IMG/VR virus record: IMGVR_UViG_3300025282_000157
Location: 1-30,312 of that record
Length of the DNA: 30,312 nt
Reading direction: 5' to 3' (one strand)
From: a virus
A model generated the notes under the pieces. The model ran no database searches, was not told where the DNA came from, and saw only the letters and a list, made by a program, of their open reading frames with translations. Position numbers and translations under genes: made by a program. Shown one piece after another: positions 20,867-29,565 of this stretch. Each line of letters starts with the position of its first letter. The first letter of the stretch is position 1.

Positions 20867-20915
20867 CCGCTGCCCATGCCCCCGAGCGCTCGGGGGCATG
20901 CTCGGAAGGTCAACC
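20861..20915 (+). repeat. Nested hairpin with perfect 26-bp inner palindrome
   Basis: An outer 8-bp inverted repeat pairs GGTTGACC (20861-20868) with GGTCAACC (20908-20915). Inside it lies a perfect 26-base palindrome (20875-20900), giving a GC-rich stem of 11-12 bp. The two stems are joined by 6- and 7-base internal loops. The left arm contains the stop codon of the upstream gene, and the next ATG is 14 bases past the structure. There is no T tract, so it may be a pause, processing or protein-binding element rather than a classic terminator. Confidence 0.7.
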
Positions 20916-23655: not shown

Positions 23656-23774
23656 GAACTCCGCGCTCGCCCGCCAGGAGCACACGCCCCGGGCCAAAGC
23701 GGGCGGGCGTTGCGTCCACTCTTTGCACCACAATACCCCGAAAACGAGGCCCGATGAGCGCCGCTTCGATTTTG

Positions 23775-23803
23775 TTGACGCTGTTTGATTTGTGCAATAT
23801 GGT
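23775..23803 (+). promoter_or_regulatory. Rightward promoter of replication operon
   Basis: TTGACG (23775-23780) and TATGGT (23798-23803) are 17 bases apart, 5/6 and 4/6 to consensus. The likely transcription start is 23810 or 23811, which coincides with the ATG of the Cro-like gene. That predicts a leaderless mRNA, as for lambda cI from its maintenance promoter. Confidence 0.6.
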
Positions 23804-23810
23804 CCGGCCC

Positions 23811-24056
23811 ATGAAACTCTCCGACTGGCTAGAAAACACCGGCACCTCGATCAACGCATTGGCAAACCTCGCAGACGTAAACGTCGCCACCGTCTGGCGG
23901 TATTTTCACGGGCGCGGTGGGCTCATGCGGTCGGATGTGGCGCTCAAGATATCCGAGGCCACGGGCTGGAAGGTTTCGGTTTTGGATCTGCTCTATCCGG
24001 GCCGAGACGTCGCGGTCATCATCGCGCCGAAAGGGACAGACAATGCGCCACAGTGA
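23811..24056 (+). CDS. Cro-like HTH regulator
   Basis: This 81-residue protein has a canonical HTH: MKLSDWLENTG then SINALANLADVNVATVWRYF, which matches the Xre pattern from its very first residue. It would bind operators between the divergent promoters and choose between left and right transcription (inference). I chose ATG 23811 because the fold starts there and it coincides with the predicted transcript start. In-frame ATGs at 23754 (with GAGG upstream) and 23799 are possible but would lie in or before the promoter. No C-terminal dimerisation or protease domain is seen. The next gene overlaps it by 14 bases. Confidence 0.7.
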   Translation: MKLSDWLENTGTSINALANLADVNVATVWRYFHGRGGLMRSDVALKISEATGWKVSVLDLLYPGRDVAVIIAPKGTDNAPQ

Positions 24057-24264
24057 CCCCACCGATCTGTCGCCAGACGACCGCTCGCGGGCTGCCGCCC
24101 TTCTGCGGTCGCACAAGGCGAGGCTCCAGGAGATCCGAGAGCGGTTCTCTATGGCGAAGAATGCTCACGAGCGCGTCGAGTGGTTCCACGAAAACACCAA
24201 AATGCAGCGGTGTCTTGAGGATGCCGCGGCGTGGCTGGAGGGATCGTTAAATGGCTCAGAATAG
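24043..24264 (+). CDS. Unknown small helical protein (73 aa)
   Basis: ATG 24043 overlaps the HTH gene by 14 bases and has AAGGGA 6 bases upstream. The 73-residue product is helical and charged (LLRSHKARLQEIRERFSMAK, then HERVEWFHENTKMQRCLEDA). No family is recognised. It lies between the HTH gene and the replication initiator and overlaps the latter by 14 bases, so it is probably co-expressed with replication genes. Confidence 0.55.
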   Translation: MRHSDPTDLSPDDRSRAAALLRSHKARLQEIRERFSMAKNAHERVEWFHENTKMQRCLEDAAAWLEGSLNGSE

Positions 24265-24979
24265 ATGGCGGCCGATCCCGGAATGGTGGGTCCACGAACC
24301 AGAGTGGTTTGACCTGTCTCCCGGCGCGTGCCAACTCCTCGTCACGATGTGGCTCCGAGCCAGAGATGGATCCTACCCCGACGATCCGCGGGCGATAAGT
24401 AAGATGACGAGTATCACCACGCGCCGCTGCCGGATGGCTGAGCACCTCGATTCCCTCGTCGCGTCTGGATACATCGAGAGGGACGGCGGAGTGCTCACCC
24501 TCTACGACTGGTCCACCGTCGTCGGCGCCAGGATGCGCGCCAAATCCAAGCGGAAGAAACTGTCCAAAATGGACAACGATGGGATAACGGACGGACAGTG
24601 GAGGGACAGCGGTGGGACAGTGGAGGGACAACGAACGGACAGCGATGGGACAGCGGTGGGACAGCCACCCCCAACGATTCCGCGAACATACGCAGATCGC
24701 TCTACGCGCGCGATCTCGCGCGAGATGTCTAATCTCTCTTCCCATAAGGAAGAGAGAGAGAGCGGGGGTGTGAGTGCGCCACAACCGCACACACTCACCC
24801 CCCCCGCAAAGAAGAACGACAGCACGCCAACACCCACCGCCGACCCTATGGGGCCGCCGAGGGTTGTCGCGGCCGTTCAGAGAGAGACGGCCGAGGAGAA
24901 ATCCAAGCGGTTGGAGAGAGAACGACGATTTCGGGAGATGTGCGAGAGAAAGGGCGTGGTCTGCGCGCTCGACGTTTGA
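24251..24979 (+). CDS. Replication initiator with winged-helix domain and internal iterons
   Basis: This 242-residue protein has an N-terminal winged-helix-like domain (residues 1-92; WFDLSPGACQLLVTMWLRAR, then RMAEHLDSLVASGYIERDGG), as in phage replisome organisers. It lies just before the DnaB-type helicase. Residues 107-140 form three 11-residue repeats (DNDGITDGQW, DSGGTVEGQR, DSDGTAVGQP) encoded by nine 11-bp DNA units. The C-terminus is charged coiled coil (TAEEKSKRLERERRFREMCE) and could contact helicase. A tethered initiator with its origin inside its own gene is the lambda O arrangement; whether it works that way here is inference. The role of helicase loader is not covered by a separate gene. 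Confidence 0.75.
   Translation: MAQNRWRPIPEWWVHEPEWFDLSPGACQLLVTMWLRARDGSYPDDPRAISKMTSITTRRCRMAEHLDSLVASGYIERDGGVLTLYDWSTVVGARMRAKSKRKKLSKMDNDGITDGQWRDSGGTVEGQRTDSDGTAVGQPPPTIPRTYADRSTRAISREMSNLSSHKEERESGGVSAPQPHTLTPPAKKNDSTPTPTADPMGPPRVVAAVQRETAEEKSKRLERERRFREMCERKGVVCALDV
24571..24669 (+). repeat. Nine 11-bp iteron-like repeats (candidate replication origin)
   Basis: GGACA or GGATA begins at 24571, 24582, 24593, 24604, 24615, 24626, 24637, 24648 and 24659, an exact 11-bp period. The consensus is about GGACAGYGRWG. The period is not a multiple of three, so the DNA repeat is not simply a codon repeat; it yields an 11-residue protein repeat every 33 bases. Each unit would lie on nearly the same helix face, suiting cooperative binding of the initiator. 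Confidence 0.8.
24733..24757 (+). repeat. Inverted repeat downstream of the iterons
   Basis: A 10-bp perfect stem pairs 24733-24742 (TCTCTCTTCC) with 24748-24757 (GGAAGAGAGA) around a CATAA loop. It sits 64 bases after the last iteron, in a region less GC-rich than its surroundings. An inverted repeat beside the iterons also occurs in the lambda origin. It may be part of the origin or an mRNA structure. Confidence 0.5.
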
Positions 24980-24995
24980 TCAACACCCGCCATGC

Positions 24996-25030
24996 GGGAA
25001 ACAGGGGAAACAGGGGAAACAGGGGAACAC
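24996..25030 (+). repeat. Tandem 9-bp repeats at helicase ribosome site
   Basis: GGGAAACAG occurs three times in tandem (24996-25004, 25005-25013, 25014-25022), followed by GGGAACAC before the helicase ATG 25031. The joins create several purine-rich SD-like sites. A short hairpin (24986-24990 with 24994-24998) precedes them and covers the alternative ATG 24992. Confidence 0.6.
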
Positions 25031-26368
25031 ATGAACGCGAACCACTTGGAGATAGTCCCAGAGACGCAGCAGTCATCGCCGCACGACGGGGAGCTGGAGG
25101 CGTCGATACTCGGATCGGTTATGAGATCAGGAGCGATCCCGGAAACGATCGCCGCCAGGCTCAACCCCGATCACTTCTTCGACCCCAGACACCAACGGAT
25201 TTGCGTCGTTATCTTGGAGATTGGAGCCGATCCCGTGACCGTCGCCTCCGCTCTCTTCGGATCGAAGGGGCTGGGATCGTATGCCGCCGAACTACTCGAC
25301 GTCTCGTTGCCGATGGTGGGCCAGGAGATCGGCTGGCTCGCCAGACTCGAAACGCTGGCAGTCTCCCGTGAGTTAGAGGCCGAGGCTATGGTCGCGGTCG
25401 ATCTCGCCCGTGACGGCAAACCTGGGGCCTCTCACGGCCACATCAGGGAGCTAGCCACCAAGCCACTGTCCGGTCCAACGGGTGTTCCCGCGTCCAAGCC
25501 GATGACCGAGGGGGCCGAGAGATTCATCGGGCGCGCCGAGGCATACGCCCGAGGCGAGTGCGTCGGGTGGAAGACGGGGATCGATATGATCGACAACACG
25601 ATCAATTCGAGTCTCGGCGGCGGCATACAACCGGGCCAGCTCGGGGTCATCGCGGGGAGGCCGGGACGGGGTAAGACGTCGTTTCTCCTCCACCTGCTCG
25701 CCAGCATAGTCGAACGCACCCCCGAGTCGGTGATGTGCCAGATGTTCAGCCTCGAGATGACCGAGGCCGAGGCGGCATACAAGCTACTGGCCCGGGAGGT
25801 GGGGAGGGGTCGCCTAGAGCGCGAGGGCGCAAGCGGCCTTATGAGCGTCGACACACTGCGCCGCAGCCAGCTCGACATATCGTCAAAGCTCGCGCGGATA
25901 TGGATCCACGACGCCGCCACGCTCGACATCGATCAGATAATCGACGAGGCCGATCGGCTCATGGCAGACGCCCAGATGCGGATCTTCGCCGTGGACTACA
26001 TCCAGCGGATCCCGTTCGACGCCGATCCCGAGTTCGCCCGCCACGAATACGGACGGGTCACCCAGCGACTTGCAGCACACGCCAAAGACAATCAGTGCGC
26101 CTGGATCGCCCTGTCCCAGTTCAACCGGCAGGCAGAATCTCGCGAGCCCACGATGGCAGACCTAAAGGAGAGCGGCGACATAGAGCAGGATGCCGCCTGG
26201 ATCCTTGGATTACACCGCCCCTTCGAGCGCGACACGACGAAGCTCGACCTGCTAAACCTCAAGAACCGATTCGGCGGCGGGCGGTACTGGTCTGCCCTTA
26301 AGGTCAACTGGCGCCATCAGCTATTCGAGAACGACATCGGCAGGGTGGAGGGCGCGGTGGACGGATGA
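25031..26368 (+). CDS. Replicative DNA helicase, DnaB-type
   Basis: This 445-residue protein is a DnaB-family 5'-3' helicase that unwinds DNA at the fork. It has an N-terminal helical domain (residues 15-125) with SILGSVMRSGAIPETIAARL. The C-terminal RecA core starts near 160. Walker A is GRPGRGKTS at 209-217. Walker B is IFAVDYIQ at 318-325. Motif H3 is WIALSQFNR at 358-366 and H4 is ESGDIEQDA at 380-388. An arginine-finger stretch lies in KNRFGGGRYW near 411-420. All key residues appear intact. I chose ATG 25031 with AGGGGA upstream; ATG 24992 would add only a repeat-encoded tail. It follows the initiator directly. Confidence 0.9.
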   Translation: MNANHLEIVPETQQSSPHDGELEASILGSVMRSGAIPETIAARLNPDHFFDPRHQRICVVILEIGADPVTVASALFGSKGLGSYAAELLDVSLPMVGQEIGWLARLETLAVSRELEAEAMVAVDLARDGKPGASHGHIRELATKPLSGPTGVPASKPMTEGAERFIGRAEAYARGECVGWKTGIDMIDNTINSSLGGGIQPGQLGVIAGRPGRGKTSFLLHLLASIVERTPESVMCQMFSLEMTEAEAAYKLLAREVGRGRLEREGASGLMSVDTLRRSQLDISSKLARIWIHDAATLDIDQIIDEADRLMADAQMRIFAVDYIQRIPFDADPEFARHEYGRVTQRLAAHAKDNQCAWIALSQFNRQAESREPTMADLKESGDIEQDAAWILGLHRPFERDTTKLDLLNLKNRFGGGRYWSALKVNWRHQLFENDIGRVEGAVDG

Positions 26369-26622
26369 CGAAACGCCAACCCCTACCGCCCGCAGCACAA
26401 GCGCACCTCTCGGAGATTTACGAGCGGCTCAACGCATACCGCGATGGAACCGACGTTCAAGCGGTCCTCGACGTCAAGTGGCTACTCGGACAGGTGGCGT
26501 GGCTCTCCGATATGGTGGAGACGTTCAGGCTCTCGACAGAGAAGAAACACAACCAACTGCGAGAGGTTCGCAAACAAAGGGACGACGCGCGGAAGGATCT
26601 GCGTGACGGGAGGATGTTGTGA
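26365..26622 (+). CDS. Unknown small helical protein (85 aa)
   Basis: The gene starts at ATG 26365 in an ATGA overlap with the helicase stop and ends in a GTGA overlap with the methyltransferase start, so all three are co-translated. The 85-residue product is helical, with a hydrophobic centre (VLDVKWLLGQVAWLSDMVET) and a basic coiled-coil end (EKKHNQLREVRKQRDDARKD). I recognise no family. A helper of replication or modification is plausible from context only. Confidence 0.6.
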   Translation: MTKRQPLPPAAQAHLSEIYERLNAYRDGTDVQAVLDVKWLLGQVAWLSDMVETFRLSTEKKHNQLREVRKQRDDARKDLRDGRML

Positions 26623-27902
26623 CCCCAGACTGGACAATCCGCGCGGGCGACTGTCGCGAGCTGATCAGATCCATCCCCGCGGCGTCAGTGCAGACCTGCA
26701 TCACGTCGCCGCCTTACTGGGGCCTTCGGGATTATGGGACAGCAACGTGGGAAGGCGGAGACAGTAATTGTGACCACATTAAGCACTCTATCCCGCGTGA
26801 TCTTGACGAGCGGGGCAGCTCAACTCTTGGCGGCACAACAAAAACACAAAACGCTGCGGAGTTAGCGGGCAATTATCTGCACGAATGCGGCATGTGTGGC
26901 GCTATTAGAAACGATTTGCAGGTCGGTCTCGAGCAAACCCCAGAGGATTACGTCTCCGAAATGGTCGACGTGTTCCGCGAGGTGCGCCGAGTGCTGCGGG
27001 ACGACGGGACGCTATGGTTGAACCTGGGGGATAGTTATGCGTCGAACCCCACCATCGGCCTCAAACAAAAGGATCTCGTCGGCATCCCCTGGCGCGTCGC
27101 CTTCGCGCTCCAGGCCGACGGATGGTATCTGCGCTCTGACATCATCTGGGCCAAGCCAAACCCCATGCCCGAGAGCATCACCGACCGGCCCACGAAGGCG
27201 CACGAGTATCTGTTTCTGTTCACAAAAAGCGCGCGGTATTATTACGACGCGGATGCGATAAAAGAGCCATTGGCGACTGAGCCACATGCCCCAGGCAATA
27301 AGAAGCTGGACGCCTCGCGCAACGACCATGACCAGATGAACAAGGTTTGGGGTAGCGATGGCCTACGCAACAAGCGCAGCGTGTGGACGATCGCGACCCA
27401 ACCATACAGCGGCGCACACTTCGCAGTGATGCCCGAGGCTCTGGTGGAGCCCTGTGTCAATGCGGGGACGTCGGAGCGCGGGTGTTGTGCATCGTGCGGG
27501 GATCCGTTCGCTAGGGTTGTTGAGCGCACGGGCGGCCCGCCATCGGGGGATCATAGGAAGCGCGCCGACGGGATAACGGGCGGCAAGACAGCGCACGACA
27601 CAGGAACGGTAGCGGGATCGCATCTGTCGAACATTTACAAGGAGTATGGCTATCCCGAGATCAAGACGATCGGGTGGAAACCTGGGTGTGGGTGCGATCA
27701 GTCAGACCCCGTGGCCTGCGTCGTCCTCGACCCTTTCGCGGGTGCGGGCACCGTTCCGCTCGTCGCCGCCAGACTGGGCAGGGACTCGATCGGGCTCGAA
27801 CTAAACCCCGAGTACGCCGAGCTAGCCCGAGAGCGGATCCGCGCCTGGGAGCTGACGGACGAGGCTCGACAGTTTCCGCTATTCGAGGAGGCCACGGCGT
27901 GA
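26619..27902 (+). CDS. DNA methyltransferase (TSPPYWG type, N4-cytosine or N6-adenine)
   Basis: This 427-residue enzyme transfers a methyl group from S-adenosylmethionine to an amino group of DNA. Motif IV TSPPYWG lies at 29-35, with GLRDYG after it. The AdoMet-binding motif I, DPFAGAGTV, lies near the C-terminus, so motif order is beta-type. S-P-P-Y favours N4-cytosine, though some adenine enzymes share it. Cysteine pairs CGMCG (near 91), CCASCG and CGC (C-terminal third) suggest zinc binding. The GTG start overlaps the previous stop. No restriction endonuclease gene is adjacent, so it is probably an orphan enzyme for evading host restriction. Confidence 0.85.
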   Translation: MTPDWTIRAGDCRELIRSIPAASVQTCITSPPYWGLRDYGTATWEGGDSNCDHIKHSIPRDLDERGSSTLGGTTKTQNAAELAGNYLHECGMCGAIRNDLQVGLEQTPEDYVSEMVDVFREVRRVLRDDGTLWLNLGDSYASNPTIGLKQKDLVGIPWRVAFALQADGWYLRSDIIWAKPNPMPESITDRPTKAHEYLFLFTKSARYYYDADAIKEPLATEPHAPGNKKLDASRNDHDQMNKVWGSDGLRNKRSVWTIATQPYSGAHFAVMPEALVEPCVNAGTSERGCCASCGDPFARVVERTGGPPSGDHRKRADGITGGKTAHDTGTVAGSHLSNIYKEYGYPEIKTIGWKPGCGCDQSDPVACVVLDPFAGAGTVPLVAARLGRDSIGLELNPEYAELARERIRAWELTDEARQFPLFEEATA

Positions 27903-28414
27903 CCCTCTACATAGGCATCGACCCAGGACTGACCGGCGCGATCGTCGTCCTCGACGAGAGCGGGAATCTCCTAGAGTGCGCGGACATCCCATCTGTGAAG
28001 AATGGAACCAAACGGGACGTGGTCCTCTCTGCCCTCGTCGCGCAGCTCGAGCCCCACAGAACCCCGCAGGGATCGGCGGGGAGGAACCGGCACCCTCGCG
28101 CGTTCGCGTGCGTCGAGGCCCAGAACGCGCGGCCAGGGCAGGGTGTGTCGTCCTCGCTAAAACTGGGCAGGTGCTTCGGTCAGATCGAAGGGCTCCTGGC
28201 GGGTTTCGGTATCCCATACGAGAACGTCGCGCCCCGCAGGTGGAAACGCGCGATGGTGCGCGATGTCGAGGGAACCGATCAAAAGGCGCGCTCTGTGCTC
28301 GCCGCGTCCCGTCTGTGGCCCGCGCTCGATCTCTCACTCAAGAAGCACCACAACCGGGCAGAGGCCGCGCTGATTGCCGAGTACGGTAGGATCACCAGGG
28401 AGGTCGAGCGTTGA
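27899..28414 (+). CDS. RuvC-like Holliday junction resolvase
   Basis: This 171-residue enzyme would cut branched DNA from recombination or replication before packaging. The RNase H-like fold shows IGIDPGLTGA with D8, a second acid at VEAQNAR (E73), and the C-terminal HHNRAEAALIAEYGR (H151, E155). The last acid is usually Asp (GRADALLIA-type) in phage relatives, so E155 is a conservative change. Length suits the family. GTG 27899 is chosen for its GTGA overlap with the methyltransferase; the frame is open upstream but lies in that gene. Flanked by methyltransferases in a replication operon. Confidence 0.82.
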   Translation: MTLYIGIDPGLTGAIVVLDESGNLLECADIPSVKNGTKRDVVLSALVAQLEPHRTPQGSAGRNRHPRAFACVEAQNARPGQGVSSSLKLGRCFGQIEGLLAGFGIPYENVAPRRWKRAMVRDVEGTDQKARSVLAASRLWPALDLSLKKHHNRAEAALIAEYGRITREVER

Positions 28415-29565
28415 AGGCTCCTCAGTGGTTCATCGAGTGGGGCGATTGCCTTGAGCGTATGGCGGCCATGCCAGCGGAGAGCGTGGACGCTATCGTCACC
28501 GATCCACCTTATGAGATCGGATTCATGGGTAAGGGATGGGATGCGTCGGGCATTGCTAACAGCGTCGATGTATGGGAGGCCGCATTGCGAGTGGCGAAGC
28601 CAGGCGCGCACCTGATCGCATTCGGGGGGACTCGGGCGTACCACCGGATGGTCTGCGCGATCGAGGATGCGGGCTGGCAGATCCGCGACTGCATCGCATG
28701 GCAGCAGTGGCAAGGATTCCCGAAATCGCTCGACGTGTCGAAGGCGATCGACAAGGCGGCTGGCATTGCGCCAACCCGCATCACAGACAACCCAACGGGC
28801 AGTTTGGGGGGGGTCGGGGATGGTGGGTGGAACCCCACCCCTAGGCGGTTGCACTATGACACCCCCGCAACCTTCGCCGCCCGCCAATGGGAAGGATGGG
28901 GCACTGCGCTTAAACCCGCCTACGAGCCCGCGGTCCTCGCGCGAAAGCCACTCGATGGGACCGTGGCCCAGAACGTGTCGAGGTGGGGCACGGGCGCGAT
29001 CAATATCGACGGGTGCCGGTATGGGTACGGGGATCCGGCGTGGCCGGGGCCGGGGGAGGCGCCCCCCGTTGGGAGGTCTGGAGCCTCCGCAGGGAGCCGG
29101 ATCGGGATCAGCGTGACCAGGGCAGGCGCCTGGCACGTTCCTGACCTGGGCCGCTGGCCCGCGAACGTCTACGCCTGCCCCAAGGCGAGCAGAGCAGAAC
29201 GGGAGTTCGGGTGTGAGGGGTTGCCGTCGGTGTCTGGGTTTGAGGCTGTAGATCGCGAGGAGGGCGCCGCGGGAGTGTCTAGCCCGCGGGCAGGGGCCGG
29301 GAGGACGGCGGATCGCGTCCACAACCATCACGTCACCGTCAAGCCGCTGGCAGTCATGCGATGGCTAGTCCGGCTTGTGACCCCACCATCCGGCCTTGTC
29401 CTCGATCCATTCTGCGGATCTGGCACGACGATCGCGGCTGCCGTTCTCGAGGGATTCGACGCGGTGGGGATGGAACTTTCCGAGGAGTATGCGAGGATCG
29501 CGCGTGCTAGGGTTGCGGCTTGGGAACGCACCGACGACGCTAGACAGATCAACCTGTTCGGATAG
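28411..29565 (+). CDS. DNA adenine-type methyltransferase (DPPY)
   Basis: This 384-residue enzyme has motif IV DPPY at 31-34 within TDPPYEIGFMGKGWD, and motif I DPFCGSGTT in the C-terminal part, so it is again beta-type order. D-P-P-Y is typical of N6-adenine enzymes, although some N4-cytosine enzymes share it. Between them is a Gly/Pro-rich insert (about residues 130-260), perhaps target recognition. It starts at TTG 28411 in a TTGA overlap with the resolvase, with GGGAGG upstream. Motif content differs from the first methyltransferase, so this is not a simple duplicate. Its specificity cannot be read from sequence. Confidence 0.85.
   Translation: MKAPQWFIEWGDCLERMAAMPAESVDAIVTDPPYEIGFMGKGWDASGIANSVDVWEAALRVAKPGAHLIAFGGTRAYHRMVCAIEDAGWQIRDCIAWQQWQGFPKSLDVSKAIDKAAGIAPTRITDNPTGSLGGVGDGGWNPTPRRLHYDTPATFAARQWEGWGTALKPAYEPAVLARKPLDGTVAQNVSRWGTGAINIDGCRYGYGDPAWPGPGEAPPVGRSGASAGSRIGISVTRAGAWHVPDLGRWPANVYACPKASRAEREFGCEGLPSVSGFEAVDREEGAAGVSSPRAGAGRTADRVHNHHVTVKPLAVMRWLVRLVTPPSGLVLDPFCGSGTTIAAAVLEGFDAVGMELSEEYARIARARVAAWERTDDARQINLFG

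Follow-up and report, generated by a model that had tools for sequence, protein, structure and literature searches.

The initiator gene and its neighbours

The window analysed here is the whole virus record of 30312 bp, and its replication initiator gene is a + strand ORF of 242 aa (24251-24979) with a GGAGG sequence ~9 bp 5′ of its ATG. The encoded protein is predicted to have an N-terminal winged helix, a linker encoded by an array of short repeats, and a C-terminal helix. A DnaB-type replicative helicase gene follows on the same strand (25031-26368; phrog_19, E 1.7e-58; Pfam DnaB_C, E 7e-38). The start at 25031 is the likely one, and a longer ORF begins at 24992, so that the helicase gene lies 51 or 12 bp downstream of the initiator gene by the start codon chosen. 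Between the two genes, directly before the likely helicase start, TRF found an error-free 9-bp tandem repeat on the + strand (GGGAAACAG, 3.6 copies, 24996-25027), for which any role is speculative; relatives often have 9-bp repeats as well, but directly 3′ of their 11-bp arrays. No separate helicase loader gene was identified in the window. Downstream of the helicase gene, at 26619-29565, a RuvC-like resolvase gene lies between two genes for N6/N4 DNA methyltransferases.

The initiator matches phrog_270 (replication initiation protein) weakly (E 6e-4), and this match is not decisive alone because the profile is unspecific, with hits in 10 of the 16 genomes searched and also in 10 of the 14 controls. 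In Pseudomonas phage LC3I3, a helicase gene of the DnaB type, related to that of the window, is immediately preceded by a gene for a phrog_5810 replication initiation protein (E 1e-76), and in a single two-sequence BLASTP comparison this protein matched the window initiator with E 1e-5 over 74 residues. Synteny with LC3I3 is thus independent support, at the level of gene order and sequence, for the predicted identity of the initiator. Among named phages no relative of the window initiator was found at E 0.1, and viral contigs, phages and plasmids held no close homologue except one 99.94% identical contig. Contig IMGVR_UViG_3300009620_002279 (L036, L318) differs from the window by five bases and one 1-bp indel near its end in 9.3 kb; the array and the inverted repeat described below are identical in it, and all five base differences are synonymous third-position changes within 82 bp (24412-24493) of the sequence coding for the winged helix. 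This cluster may be a short patch acquired by recombination, or strain variants may have been assembled together.

The predicted winged-helix DNA-binding domain covers residues ~5-90 (24265-24520, + strand). The AF2 model has modest confidence (mean pLDDT 67), and its elements (H24-38, H46-52, H62-72, E75-78 and E81-85) follow the helix and strand order expected of a winged helix. Fold searches with this model gave no significant match (Z at most 4), and the weak structural matches were nearly all winged helices, the DnaD N-terminal domain among them. In array-bearing relatives the same region is modelled as a confident winged helix (pLDDT 85) with CAP-type DNA-binding domains as best matches (Z ~8); there the winged helix ends near residue 107 and the array begins at residue 120. 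In a profile comparison with DnaD-like array-bearing initiators only the recognition helix and wing aligned (E 0.022). Though weak, the profile match, the LC3I3 comparison and the predicted winged helix are concordant and support the view that the array-carrying gene encodes a DNA-binding initiator, in keeping with the first-pass annotation, which had described a winged-helix initiator-type gene next to a helicase gene.

An 11-bp iteron array within the initiator gene

Nine 11-bp iterons with the consensus (G)GGACA(A/G)(C/T)GRN occupy 24570-24668 on the + strand, entirely within the initiator ORF, and are likely binding sites of the initiator. The motif starts at 24571, 24582 (here GGATA), 24593, 24604, 24615, 24626, 24637, 24648 and 24659, at a step of exactly 11 bp, just as had been noticed on first reading, and the tandem-repeat finder TRF independently reported period 11 with 7.1 copies and a score of 86 at 24588-24665. 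Across the units the spacers have diverged and GGACA is retained. A single inverted motif core (24561-24565, − strand; TGTCC on the + strand) lies 5 bp before the first iteron, with a putative role.

The lag-11 self-match of the array, 44, is the top lag score in the 30-kb record, and the independent runner-up is 23 at lag 9, in the 9-bp tandem repeat before the helicase gene. The lag score of the other predicted genes never exceeded 17, and their best lags were all multiples of 3; among predicted genes the array is therefore the sole strong in-gene repeat of the record with a period that is not a codon multiple. Markov shuffles of the initiator gene, taking the best of all lags, gave a mean of 9.4 and a maximum of 13. 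When the protein was preserved by synonymous resampling with the phage's own codon usage (n = 3000), the lag-11 score averaged 7.5 and reached at most 29, whereas permuting synonymous codons within the gene gave at most 32 and shuffling codon order at most 12. Likewise, protein-preserving randomisation yielded chains of no more than 4 or 6 GGAYA motifs, against the nine observed. Because these synonymous nulls fall far below 44, the amino-acid sequence does not imply the repeat, and the earlier proposal of DNA-level selection, made from the step not being a codon multiple, holds in that the protein is excluded as the source of the repeat. Codon-usage bias in the array did not differ from that in other genes.

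An array of this kind could instead serve as an operator through which the initiator operon is autoregulated, or as another transcriptional control site, bound either by the initiator or by the product of the HTH regulator gene upstream of it (23754-24056; phrog_35, E 2.7e-6). Iteron-binding initiators often autoregulate, and the nearby regulator gene also speaks for such a role. However, the array is located ~320 bp inside the gene and not at a promoter, and equivalent in-gene repeats are the origin in SPP1 (PMC6316719), so that we consider an operator function in place of an origin improbable.

The inverted repeat and candidate unwinding region

The inverted repeat that had been claimed to follow the array is perfect, with 10-bp arms and the loop CATAA (TCTCTCTTCC-CATAA-GGAAGAGAGA, 24733-24757). 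It is one of four distinct perfect repeats in the record with arms of at least 9 bp and loops of at most 12, it falls in the least stable stretch near the array, and it is a candidate site of unwinding or helicase loading. A 14-bp perfect palindrome (ATCTCGCGCGAGAT, 24713-24726) lies between the iterons and the inverted repeat. Elsewhere in the record there is a 26-bp perfect palindrome (CATGCCCCCGAGCGCTCGGGGGCATG, 20875-20900); a second contig of the same phage begins exactly there, so the palindrome may mark a break in the assembly or act as a terminator.

In relatives, stems of at least 7 bp occurred 3′ of the array in 10 of 34 cases compared with 1-3 of 34 controls. We considered the inverted repeat as a conserved third part of the arrangement and rejected it, since one clade drives this signal and the count by cluster was 2 of 17 versus 6 of 68 (p = 0.5); it is a recurrent element in some lineages only and not a general feature. 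The 40 bp after the array are on average 13 points richer in A+T than the contig in relatives (17 clusters), with a positive difference in 14, which matches a layout of iterons plus an unwinding element. In the window, A+T directly after the array is raised by only 0.6 points, and a mildly unstable stretch comes 45-100 bp further, at the inverted repeat. This best local unwinding candidate is unremarkable, as ~10% of 120-bp stretches have one as weak.

Cumulative GC skew, which had been suggested as a check, showed no clean turn attributable to an origin. A local minimum near 24 kb coincides with a gene strand switch, and skew is uninformative here because genes change strand close to the site.

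Arrays in relatives

We scanned viral contigs for exact GGGACA(N5) repeated four times at an 11-bp step; 101 viral stretches matched, whereas the reversed motif matched 12. The unique longest ORFs covering these arrays, 65 in number, matched phrog_186 and phrog_2514 (DnaD-like; 32 and 30 ORFs) and phrog_9474 and phrog_270 (replication initiation; 12 and 9 ORFs), with overlapping membership. Most such arrays lie in genes for replication initiators, immediately 3′ of the part that encodes the winged helix. Among 52 unique genes kept by position, which take in the window and six bacterial-genome loci, the array mostly starts at residues 114-130, and frames 0, 1 and 2 are used 19, 21 and 12 times. 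After removal of six doubtful members and collapsing at 45% identity, 19 clusters remained, with frames 0/1/2 in 9/5/5 and a median array start at residue 116. Hence, as far as sequences can tell, the DNA motif and its 11-bp phase are kept in relatives while the peptide drifts, across different initiator families and in all reading frames, which is what the initial annotation had proposed to look for.

The longer window motif, GGACARYGR three times, was found in 11 stretches, one of them the near-identical contig. In the stretches that were read, arrays again stood directly after a winged-helix-type region, in other initiator families (L037, L071, L375-L378), with L374 as a clear exception. 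This 84.5-kb viral contig has a 416-aa ORF with CGGACAGCGGA-type arrays near both ends (1925-1968 and near 2858), outside any recognised initiator.

A scan for GGGACA at a 12-bp step was intended as a negative control and was unusable because many such arrays also lie in replication genes (L123-L241; phrog_22470 in 16 and phrog_3992 in 14 of 82 ORFs). Since a 12-bp step keeps one reading frame, a protein-level cause is possible for these period-12 arrays. In bacterial genomes, GGGACA repeated five times consisted mostly of identical-spacer tandem repeats outside initiator genes, so that by itself the motif has no diagnostic value in them. Many contigs of one Lentisphaeria genome (among L249-L316) carry GGGACACGGAC arrays at an 11-bp step, and these are not in initiator-like genes.

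These data bear on a further explanation, that the array is merely a coding repeat for a flexible acidic and glycine-rich linker, with the DNA regularity arising as a side effect of tandem duplication. The encoded segment DGITDGQWRDSGGTVEGQRTDSDGTAVGQ is indeed of this low-complexity, acidic and glycine-rich type and has no predicted regular structure, and the identical-spacer 11-bp arrays outside initiators in bacteria indicate that slippage can create such repeats. But a period of 11 is not a codon multiple and the repeat is destroyed by protein-preserving resampling, the spacers in the window have diverged around a conserved GGACA, and the use of all three frames in relatives means that different peptides arise from the same DNA motif. 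We therefore regard a linker-coding origin of the repeat as unlikely, marginally more so than an operator.

We also measured the strongest lag in initiator genes of named phages picked by protein similarity only, with no reference to the motif. Lag 11 was strongest in Staphylococcus B166 (score 46), Sulfitobacter pCB2047-A (31), SPP1 gene 38 (26), Enterococcus EH-TP1 (26), Vibrio F89 (22), HK633 O (21) and Klebsiella Chronis (20), and tied with lag 55 in ST160 gp18 (20), while the null maxima averaged ~9-11. The lag-11 signals were always around nt 340-430 of the gene. Exceptions were 80alpha (lag 15/30), LL-H (16), Bacteroides BS-TP2 and Lactobacillus iA2 (12), Pseudoalteromonas SL25 and Vibrio 1.064 (23), and Stenotrophomonas BUCT708 (45, 24 and 21), and epsilon15-type initiators, which belong to neighbouring families, had no 11-bp array after the winged helix. 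Given these exceptions and the period-12 arrays in replication genes, the spacing rule is better put as roughly one turn of the helix, with 11 bp the most frequent value in this sample.

Comparison with known origins

Gene 18 of Salmonella phage L contains six 11-bp TGTCCAACGGA repeats that were called a likely origin, and the DnaB-type helicase gene 12 follows (PMC8022706). This module resembles the window in having an initiator gene with 11-bp in-gene repeats and then a DnaB-type helicase gene, and its repeats share the GGACA core read on the other strand (TGTCC being the reverse complement), although the phage-L-type initiator protein is not recognisably related to that of the window. In the L-type phages ST160 and HK633 a 10-bp perfect hairpin stands 3′ of the iterons, placed similarly to the inverted repeat of the window; unlike the window with its nine contiguous units, they have two separated groups of three repeats and a clear AT-rich tract directly after them.

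In SPP1 the origin is proven: gp38 binds the direct repeats of oriL within gene 38, which adjoin an AT-rich unwinding element (PMC6316719). As in the window, direct repeats lie in the initiator gene and the strongest lag, 11, is found directly after the winged-helix region, and the window array thus has the same layout as this proven origin. SPP1 differs in its repeat core, GACAC in an A-rich context, in its AT-rich unwinding element, and in a separate loader, gp39, before the helicase. For 80alpha, a mutant of ORF20 could not be complemented in trans, which according to its authors suggests an embedded origin (PMC5499656).

In Sulfitobacter pCB2047-A, SUAG_00025 and its alphaproteobacterial-type relatives likewise carry GGGACAGCAGC iterons at an 11-bp step directly after the winged-helix region. 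Compared with the window, pCB2047-A has four consecutive unit copies, an AT-rich tract that follows them, and no annotation of a DnaB-type helicase within 1 kb downstream.

The resemblance to lambda O that had been noted for the window holds in two respects, iterons placed midway along the initiator gene and a neighbouring gene for helicase loading (PMC7466680, PMC3349717). However, ori-lambda has four 18-bp iterons and a 38-bp AT-rich tract, and lambda P is a loader whereas the neighbour in the window is the helicase itself, and the nearest published parallels are gene 18 of phage L and gene 38 of SPP1. By sequence comparison, the window thus joins the known kind of in-gene iteron origin, and differs from phage L by more units that are contiguous, by the strand on which they are read, and by a highly divergent initiator.

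Plasmid parC loci have 11-bp direct repeats too, such as the iterons of ParR-parC of plasmid R1, but a partition (centromere-like) site is very improbable here, as no ParA/ParM or RHH adaptor was found among the window proteins scanned (a subset of ORFs), the site is inside a winged-helix initiator gene adjoining a helicase gene, and phage origins that are proven or likely contain the same arrays.

A probable in-gene origin and its possible mechanism

We conclude that the array is probably an in-gene iteron replication origin bound by its own initiator, to which we assign a probability of roughly 85%. The candidate origin named at first reading is therefore also the best reading after this analysis, the same arrangement being a proven origin in SPP1 (PMC6316719).

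From the arrangement we infer how such an origin could work. Each GGACA unit would be a binding site for the N-terminal winged-helix domain of one protomer. With units 11 bp apart, about one helical turn, neighbouring protomers would line up along almost one face of the helix, in contact with each other. Together they would form a gently twisting nucleoprotein filament, and the strain it imposes would melt a weak segment close by, for which the inverted-repeat region (~24712-24765) is the best candidate. The strand exposed there would then pass to the DnaB-type helicase that the phage itself encodes in the adjacent downstream gene.

Beyond this phage, a GGACA-core iteron at one-helical-turn spacing may be a recurrent origin signature of tailed phages with very different hosts and unrelated winged-helix initiator families, acting at the DNA level, in any frame, and directly after the DNA-binding domain; we judge the odds for and against this generalization to be about even. 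In the open-access literature searched, we found no description of this cross-family 11-bp GGACA regularity. If true, the shared signature must go back either to an ancestral origin code common to these phages or to convergent selection favouring an initiator filament along one face of the DNA. It raises a structural question, namely how initiator domains spaced one to a helical turn assemble on DNA, and the question of what makes initiator families this different retain one core motif. Moreover, origins of uncultured phages are almost never known, and if an 11-bp GGACA-core array after a winged helix marks origins generally, the origins of such phages would become predictable from sequence.
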